From assembly GCA_030145345.1 (NCBI GenBank), contig JAQYVT010000018.1, forward strand, positions 1 through 39,253: a stretch of DNA of 39,253 nt, read 5' to 3'. Shown piece by piece: positions 16,560 to 18,266 of this stretch. The translations under genes were made by a program, and so were the position numbers. This DNA comes from Desulfobacterales bacterium. GTDB taxonomy: Bacteria > Desulfobacterota > Desulfobacteria > Desulfobacterales > UBA11574. Positions within the stretch are counted from its first letter, which is position 1. Each line of letters opens with the position of its first letter. Under the pieces are notes generated by a model, which worked only from the letters and a program-made list of their open reading frames with translations, was not told the origin of the DNA and ran no database searches.

Positions 16560-17186
16560 TTGATTATCCAAGAACTGGTCGTTGGACCGCTTATGGCAAA
16601 CTGTTTTATCTGCGGATGTTCGAAAACAAAAGAAGCTGTTGTCATTGATCCAGGGGGTGATGCAGACACGATATTGCTTTCTCTGGCCGATGCCAAGCTC
16701 AAGGTAAAATATATCATCAACACCCACGGACATTTTGACCATGTCAGCGCCAACGGTAAAATGAAAGATGCAACCGGTGCCGACATCCTGATTCATCCTC
16801 TAGATGCACCCATGCTGGAAAAACTTTCATCAAATGCAGCTTTTTTCGGGGTTTCAGTGGAAAACTCACCACCGTGTGATCAAACCCTTGAGGAAGGCGA
16901 TACCGTTTCTTTTGGTGATATTACCCTGAAAGTTATCCATACGCCCGGACATACGCCGGGCGGTATTTCACTGTATACCAACGGGATTGTTTTTGTGGGG
17001 GACACGCTGTTTGCCGGTTCCATTGGTCGCACCGATTTCCCAGGCGGAGATTTTAACACCCTGATATCGAGCATCAAGACCAAACTTTTTAATATGGAAG
17101 ATGATATGCGGGTCTTTTCAGGGCACGGTCCGGAAACAAGCATCGGCGTGGAAAAGCGCCATAATCCTTTTGTGGGGCAGTTTTAA
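16560..17186 (+). CDS. Metallo-beta-lactamase-fold hydrolase (glyoxalase II-like)
   Basis: A 208-residue binuclear-metal hydrolase. The metal motif THGHFDH gives His56, His58, Asp60 and His61. HTPGHTPGG and FVGDTLFAGSIGRTD supply the third-metal-ligand His and the bridging Asp, and FSGHGPET the last His. The layout is that of the YcbL/glyoxalase-II-like group acting on thioesters such as S-lactoylglutathione analogues; the true substrate cannot be read from sequence. The start is TTG 16560, with GGAGG (16550-16554) 5 nt upstream. A terminator follows the gene. No signal peptide is present, so it is probably cytosolic. Confidence 0.88.
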   Translation: MIIQELVVGPLMANCFICGCSKTKEAVVIDPGGDADTILLSLADAKLKVKYIINTHGHFDHVSANGKMKDATGADILIHPLDAPMLEKLSSNAAFFGVSVENSPPCDQTLEEGDTVSFGDITLKVIHTPGHTPGGISLYTNGIVFVGDTLFAGSIGRTDFPGGDFNTLISSIKTKLFNMEDDMRVFSGHGPETSIGVEKRHNPFVGQF

Positions 17187-17265
17187 ATTCTTGGTTGAAG
17201 AAAAAATGACAATTCGATGAAAGAAGTTTTTGTTCGATTTTAGAGTGGTCTGAGTCAAATATTTG

Positions 17266-17307
17266 GGTCACCCGGACCATGCATATGTCTGGGTGACCTA
17301 TTTTTTT
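17266..17307 (+). terminator. Intrinsic terminator after the MBL-fold hydrolase
   Basis: GGTCACCC (about 17266-17273) pairs with GGGTGACC (about 17291-17298) and is followed by TA and seven T (to 17307). The T-tract is also the left copy of the apparent target duplication of the foldback element beginning at 17308. Confidence 0.75.
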
Positions 17308-17520
17308 GTACGTATTCAGGGGGTGTGTTTTCTCGTGTAACGATATCGGCGGAGTGGCTTCGTCATTTCAATGATTTAGCAGTGGGGGAGACCGCGGCTC
17401 CCGCATGCTTTTCGCGGGAGAACGCGGAGGGGGAAGGAATGCCCCCGCTGCTAAGTTATTGAAATGACCAGACACGCAGACGCCAAAGTGAAACGGGGAA
17501 GCACCCCCCTGAATACGTAT
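17308..17520. mobile_element. MITE-like foldback element with apparent target-site duplication
   Basis: The outer arms TACGTATTCAGGGGG (17309-17323) and its exact complement (17505-17519) are 15-bp terminal inverted repeats. Further in, 17362-17388 pairs with 17442-17468 without interruption for 27 bp, with three G:T pairs and no other mismatch. The centre holds a further hairpin: CCGCG/CGCGG (17392-17396, 17423-17427) over CTCCCGC/GCGGGAG (17398-17404, 17414-17420). The element is flanked by identical TATTTTTTT (17299-17307 and 17520-17528), as expected for target duplication. No protein frame is inside. It could equally be a structured RNA. Confidence 0.6.
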
Positions 17521-17545
17521 ATTTTTTTAGCCGGTTTCGTTGTTT

Positions 17546-18151
17546 TTATTGACCGGACATGCCGGGCATCATTGGCATTGACATCTTCTGATACCCGGAG
17601 GGTATCTCAAAAAGAGCGTCGGAAACCGTTTTTTCATCGATGTTTCTGTATTCCATGACCATATGGCCGGATGGCCCATCTGACTCAATTTTGATGGGAA
17701 AATGGAGCGTTTCGGAAATCCAGTAGGTTGCAGTGCCAAGGGACGGATCATTGGGCGTGTAAAGATGTTTTGCACACATATAGCCGTTGACTTTTTCTTT
17801 GCCCAGATATTTCTTCGTCCCCATCTTCTCCAGTTCATCCGGATCAACGGGAGCCATATTTGGTTGACTGCCTGAAGGCATTTCCATGTACATCATTTGT
17901 TCAGGCATCAAAACCCATACAACGCCTTTATCTTTTCGGAAAATCGTTACCTGTTTTCTCCCTTGAAAATTCATTTCCTGTCTGAAGTTACTTCCCTTGA
18001 AAAACGCTTTACCTTTTATGGTTCCCATGGACGATGTTTGAACCATATCGGCGGAAAAGTCAGCAGCATTTCCGGATACCGGAAGCGCCAATACGGCCAT
18101 GATAAAGATGGCGACAAACAGATAGAGCCGTGACATTGAATTCTCTAACAT
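17546..18151 (-). CDS. Exported DUF4412-like (LolA-fold-like) protein with Met-rich C terminus
   Basis: A 201-residue protein with a signal peptide (LFVAIFIMAVLALPVSGNAA, cleavage near residue 30). A beta-rich domain follows, resembling periplasmic DUF4412/LolA-like proteins: DFSADMVQTSSMGTIKGKAF, KGVVWVLMPEQMMYMEM, then YLGKEKVNGYMCAKH. Its function is not known. Methionine is unusually common (EQMMYMEMP, and the tail MSMPMMPGMSGQ), which might bind a soft metal such as copper, but that is speculation. ATG 18151 has a GGGGG-type site 8 nt upstream, and an internal ATG 15 nt further is also possible. It reads toward the foldback element at 17308-17520. Confidence 0.75.
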   Translation of the reverse strand: MLENSMSRLYLFVAIFIMAVLALPVSGNAADFSADMVQTSSMGTIKGKAFFKGSNFRQEMNFQGRKQVTIFRKDKGVVWVLMPEQMMYMEMPSGSQPNMAPVDPDELEKMGTKKYLGKEKVNGYMCAKHLYTPNDPSLGTATYWISETLHFPIKIESDGPSGHMVMEYRNIDEKTVSDALFEIPSGYQKMSMPMMPGMSGQ

Positions 18152-18231
18152 CCTTTTTTCCCCCTTGTATCGGTTAATGACCAGGTTCGTGTTTTAAAAA
18201 CGATACCATAATCAACCCAAGGAGGCAACAG

Positions 18232-18266
18232 CCCCCGTCCCGACCGGATTTGCGGCGGGACGGGGG
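18232..18266. terminator. Strong GC hairpin between two minus-strand genes
   Basis: CCCCCGTCCCG (18232-18242) and CGGGACGGGGG (18256-18266) form a perfect 11-bp stem around a 13-nt loop. It lies directly downstream of the 18285-18635 gene on the minus strand. No T-tract follows in that direction, so it may be a terminator, an RNA-stabilising stem or a repeat. Confidence 0.45.

Follow-up and report, generated by a model that had tools for sequence, protein, structure and literature searches.

A mobile MITE family with IS66-type ends in Desulfobacterales, and a suggestive one-strand fold signature in its inner helices

In the window (the whole 39,253-nucleotide stretch of Desulfobacterales DNA that was analysed), an MBL-fold hydrolase gene (16560-17186; Pfam Lactamase_B) lies to the left, and a DUF4412-domain gene (17546-18151, minus strand) to the right, of a 213-bp element at 17308-17520. 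By alignment of its copies, the element belongs to a family whose normal length is 214 bp. Perfect 15-bp inverted repeats occupy 17309-17323 and 17505-17519, and the arms of a 27-bp stem, 17362-17388 and 17442-17468, are 89% complementary; a sequence check found both structures where the preliminary description had placed them. Its identification of the left TATTTTTTT copy as the U-tract of a strong terminator of the upstream gene also held. The features of the locus are the following.

17265..17307, plus strand: intrinsic terminator of the MBL-fold hydrolase gene, with the stem at about 17265-17298 and the U-tract at 17299-17307 (from the sequence; fold -26.9 kcal/mol, z -5.4)
17300..17307, no strand: left target duplication (TSD) ATTTTTTT, 8 bp (from the sequence; 8-bp TSDs occur in most of 95 copies)
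17308..17520, plus strand: whole MITE copy, 213 bp; the plus strand is the family "sense" strand with the G-U pairs
17308..17323, plus strand: left terminal inverted repeat (TIR) GTACGTATTCAGGGGG, consensus GTACGTGTTCAGGGGG (from the repeat and copy comparison)
17324..17361, plus strand: left strand of the sub-terminal helix and conserved left internal loop, GTAACGATAT.GGCGGAGTGGCTTC (from alignment and segment divergence)
17362..17388, plus strand: left arm of the inner 27-bp stem (from complementarity, covariation and G-U bias)
17389..17441, plus strand: apical domain, which contains a nested hairpin and is more conserved than any other part (from alignment, segment divergence and fold)
17442..17468, plus strand: right arm of the inner 27-bp stem (from complementarity)
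17469..17504, plus strand: right internal loop and right strand of the sub-terminal helix (from alignment and covariation)
17505..17520, minus strand: right TIR, its outermost base C mutated to T (17520)
17521..17528, no strand: right TSD ATTTTTTT (from the sequence and copy comparison)

The sequence TATTTTTTT stands on either side of the window copy (17299-17307 and 17520-17528), and it had been described as a 9-bp duplication. The duplication is real, but its length is 8 bp, because the family ends fix the boundary: aligned copies start G-TACGTGTTCAGGGGG and finish with the complement ...CCCCCTGAACACGTA-C, with the 8-bp duplications outside. Compared with the family alignment, the T at 17520 is the mutated terminal C of the window copy; the element thus starts with the G at 17308 and ends at 17520, which leaves ATTTTTTT as the TSD. 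The ninth "duplicated" T is this mutated base and matches by chance. When TSDs were scored in 95 copies, all eight positions matched in 39 and seven of the eight in 22, so that 61 copies reach seven or eight matches; control 8-mers offset by 12 bp never matched at more than five positions, and the duplication is therefore not due to chance.

A search of the organism's own genome (G000) and its relatives, which the preliminary description had proposed, was productive: about 30 copies are present in G000 (32 with two partials, counted by end pairs), and matches occur in 14 other genomes of the 23 searched from the same family. Among the 60 genomes searched overall, no same-order genome outside that family gave a match. 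Used against the GTDB collection, the exact core pattern found only MAGs named Desulfobacterales, Desulfobacteraceae or Deltaproteobacteria, including Eth-SRB2, and no match was obtained in plasmid, phage and viral-contig collections. Short (213-214 bp), non-coding and multicopy, with 16-bp TIRs, the element is a MITE.

The flanks of 18 insertions in G000 were joined at the inferred empty site and sought in four relatives. Contiguous, element-free orthologous sites were recovered at base level for L004, L005, L006, L014, L015 and L016, as well as for the 38-bp copy L070 and the 121-bp copy L074. The target 8-mer is identical at two of these empty sites, AATTTCGC (L005 vs L145) and CTGTTCCG (L014 vs L137), and has diverged at the others. 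A second joined-flank search returned mostly empty sites, including those for the G001-G003 copies L203, L208 and L209, and shared insertions were scarce; at the empty site of L209, in L321 and L322, a single target copy, AATTTTTT, is present. Since most insertions are unshared among same-genus genomes, the family has been recently active. Dispersed copies, TSDs and empty sites in same-genus genomes show that the family is mobile, and the earlier reading of a mobile foldback element with target duplication is borne out. The empty sites with one target copy that were foreseen there exist for other insertions in same-genus genomes, but no clean one was found for the window copy, as G001 has both flanks without the whole segment. 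In this same-genus genome, window positions 17200-18232 (terminator, element and DUF4412 gene) are absent, and about 13 bp lie between the flanking sequences. For a test of selection after insertion, orthologous copies provided only two useful pairs, in which the elements are 97% identical and the flanks 84-92%.

The hairpin is also reshaped at fixed sites. At one site, the 214-bp L008 (G000) corresponds to the 38-bp L143 (G002), and both carry the same private end GGACGT; at two G003 sites (L157, L141), both TSDs are kept with only GTAC or GTAT between them; and L016 (G000) and L174 (G001) occupy the same site with the interior inverted. In the consensus, a computed deletion between the GGGGG direct repeats at 12 and 188 gives a 38-bp sequence from which natural 38-bp copies differ at 1-5 positions, and a deletion between AATGAC at 63 and 156 gives a 121-bp sequence. 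The GTAC footprint fits the same deletion logic, GTAC being a palindrome present at each end. Recombination or slippage between short direct repeats on either side of the hairpin would give the 121-bp and 38-bp remnants and near-precise loss; the deletion patterns are observed, and slippage at the hairpin base is their putative mechanism. Likewise, template switching between the arms may homogenise them and can invert the interior, again as a putative mechanism for observed patterns. Taken together, the dozens of polymorphic copies, the empty sites and the forms found in place (full length, 38 bp, inverted, 4-bp footprint) offer a natural archive of the decay and repair of long hairpins in bacterial chromosomes. 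At the L010 site, G002 (L171/L166) has a remnant of the element's right end joined to about 315 bp of other, repeat-like sequence.

Regarding target choice, ORF-based gene calls around 64 insertions with usable flanks gave 20 tandem, 10 divergent and 7 convergent arrangements, the remaining insertions having a gene call on one side only or on neither. The orientation of the element is random with respect to genes (26:23 against left genes, 28:23 against right genes), so no role in host transcripts is evident. Insertions thus occur in all gene contexts and in both orientations, and their targets are AT-rich. The preliminary description had the element aim at the terminator U-tract, and several copies agree with such targeting: besides the window copy, L016 (just past a tRNA terminator), L071, L201, L209 and L239 lie in or beside T or A runs. 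This proposal fails on the wider sample and is very improbable, since all gene contexts are represented, convergent sites are rarer than divergent and tandem ones, a run of six A or T is present in only 5 of the 61 good TSDs, and TSDs are 70% AT, compared with 56% in the flanks. The position of the window copy in a U-tract would then be chance within an AT-rich preference.

The ends of the family indicate what may have moved it. In the same order, IS66 transposases that score above the NCBI cut-off for the family (NF033517) lie between ends GTAACTATTCAG or GTAACCGTTCACGGG. TSDs of 8 bp flank the IS66 loci L087, L088, L116, L290, L292, L294, L295, L300 and L314. MITE ends of this type include the GTAAGCGTTCAGGGG start in G004/G007 copies, the GTAACTATTCAGGGGG end in G022 copies and the GTACGTGTTCACGGGG end of one subfamily; most copies, the window copy included, start with GTAC, a near match to the IS66 GTAA start. 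The end pattern expected of an IS66-family partner is GTACGTGTTCA(G/C)GGGG. No IS66 gene (PF03050) was found in G000 (a draft of 188 contigs, 97.8% complete), nor an autonomous partner with the same ends in that genome; relatives rich in copies gave no IS66 element with exact MITE ends, and the best-matching IS66 ends belong to other genera. The MITE consensus matched none of the IS66 loci examined. Mobilisation by another transposase family with 8-bp TSDs, for example ISL3, IS1595 or IS256, would accord with the absence of a matching autonomous element from G000; it is unlikely, however, because the MITE has the GTAA/GTAC start and TTCA(G/C)GGG block of the same-order IS66 elements. IS66-type mobilisation is likely, short of proof, with a putative IS66-type transposase acting in trans on the MITE. 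The claim refers to IS66-type ends and not to proven IS66 descent, the candidate partner being one we infer from other genera only. Two sets of candidates were rejected: single end-matches (L076-L081) have no transposase, several lie inside genes, and L077 and L081 are partial copies; the IS66 loci of G019/Eth-SRB2 (L087, L088) end in GTAAG but differ in the inner block.

The predicted fold is very stable on either strand, at -125 kcal/mol for the plus strand (z -12) and -99 kcal/mol for the minus strand (z -9.7). On the plus strand, the 27-bp stem has G-U at its imperfect pairs (consensus pairs 66/150, 68/148 and 76/140), as had been noticed before, and the search for compensatory changes proposed with that observation had a positive outcome. 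Of the pair cells in an alignment of 57 copies, 96.9% are standard, and 27 pairs have changed on both sides (RNAalifold); this covariation is higher than in any of 500 shuffles and in any slide. Events that turn a Watson-Crick pair into G-U or into A-C, counted by parsimony in 62 copies on a poorly resolved tree with shared ancestry among copies, number 20:21 for the TIR, 38:4 for the sub-terminal helix, 42:9 for the inner stem and 20:10 elsewhere. In one strand orientation, the inner helices together thus have 80:13 G-U to A-C events and the TIR is symmetric (Fisher p 2e-5 for the contrast). Outside the TIR, G-U exceeds A-C in 47 copies and falls below it in 4; singletons alone give 14:5 there (p 0.06), and unpaired sites have no matching strand bias. 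In addition, the left loop and apical domain diverge by 3.6-3.9%, compared with 8.0% for the TIR. Compensatory changes with G-U intermediates on one strand, as expected of a structured RNA, are therefore found in the inner helices only. Of the earlier proposal of selection on an RNA fold, the part concerning the inner helices stands, with its one-strand G-U bias and compensatory changes; it does not extend to the TIR, which lacks the bias, and template switching may add to the covariation. These comparisons suggest that the inner helices are kept foldable in one strand as RNA, and this signature is suggestive, not proof.

Two other explanations of the arms and the fold have to be weighed. Inverted repeats are known to undergo template switching, which makes their arms alike and inverts the spacer (PMC8604942) and which can pass for compensatory change (PMC8794818); it explains the TIR pattern and the interior inversion seen between L016 and L174. 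The TIR arms of one copy have private changes in common (81 differences vs 144 with shuffled partners; e.g., L010, L217, L232 and L036), and half of the TIR double changes are transversion types, which are unable to pass through G-U. Such a DNA process might account for all of the covariation and arm identity without RNA selection, a serious possibility that falls somewhat short of probable: it gives no reason for a strand-specific G-U excess in the inner helices beside a symmetric TIR of the same strand, or for a left loop and apical domain that diverge less than the TIR. Where covariation is taken to prove RNA structure, RNA selection and template-switch homogenisation are readily mistaken for each other, and here the TIR and the inner helices on the same strand provide an internal control for separating them. 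The stable fold, the conserved apical domain and the G-U bias would also suit a transcribed structured RNA gene or a cis-regulatory RNA (an attenuator or a stabiliser of mRNA 3' ends) that is repetitive by happenstance. This is quite unlikely, as TSDs and empty sites make transposition evident, the orientation with respect to genes is random, every gene context is represented, and neither an Rfam match (E<=1) nor a promoter-like site was found for the element. The random orientation suggests that any RNA role would belong to the mobile lineage and not to host mRNAs. We favour the view that, for as long as the mobile lineage persists, the inner helices may be selected for folding in one strand, most probably as RNA, with a function that is putative. 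That the MITE encodes a functional structured RNA on one strand, with its loop and apical domain conserved and its inner helices maintained through G-U-mediated compensation, and needed by the mobile lineage (for example, for mobilisation or survival) whatever the host-gene orientation, is a more tentative proposal, and we regard it as doubtful.

ERIC, Correia and similar palindromic intergenic repeats are likewise hairpins scattered between genes; they too have size variants and could act once transcribed, but they have other sequences and TA target duplications. Prokaryotic MITEs such as MITEPsy1 (PMC3189936) and QMITE2 of Coxiella (PMC10969869) are non-coding elements of <300 bp with TIRs, TSDs and AT-rich targets that are moved in trans; QMITE2 has 7-9 bp direct repeats, a 113-145 bp core and a very stable predicted transcript fold (PMC10969869). 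The present family resembles them in size, repeats, duplications and stable predicted fold; unlike them, it has an interior more conserved than the TIRs, a series of discrete deletions in place down to 38 bp and a strand-specific G-U signature. With the IS66 family (PF03050 / NF033517) it shares GTA.. ends, the TTCA(G/C) block and the 8-bp TSD, but it is a MITE without transposase genes, and its interior is unrelated in sequence to the IS66 loci examined. Borrelia intergenic repeat motifs are similar in that compensatory changes in repeats are read as RNA structure, and they differ in being plasmid-borne at lipoprotein loci and in not being shown there as transposons with target duplications (PMC2674063). 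In the open-access literature searched, no IS66-type MITE was described from these organisms. As a kind of element, a MITE with such ends is ordinary; the strand-specific fold signature and the hairpin dynamics are the interesting part. As a whole, we consider it very likely that the element is a MITE moved by an IS66-type system, with a hairpin reshaped in place, inner helices selected to fold and a U-tract site reached by chance.

Other repeats were encountered in the flanks of copies. A second dispersed repeat (..ACAACATGCTACTGCAAATGTCTCATAACG..), which has no relation to the hairpin element, lies in the left flank of L018 (G000 contig C91); relatives have dozens of matches to it, and it occurs at many places in G002, G003 and G009. 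A third, around AACAGATCCGGGCTAAATGGGCCATTTATGGATGG, lies in the left flank of L009 (G000 contig C95) and is abundant in G002, at some 20 places or more. Two related elements of the complete genome G007, L102:3991-4203 and L105:4653-4864, have one right flank in common (aaaattggttat), and several copies resemble one another in their left flanks, as though they belonged to larger composite repeats.
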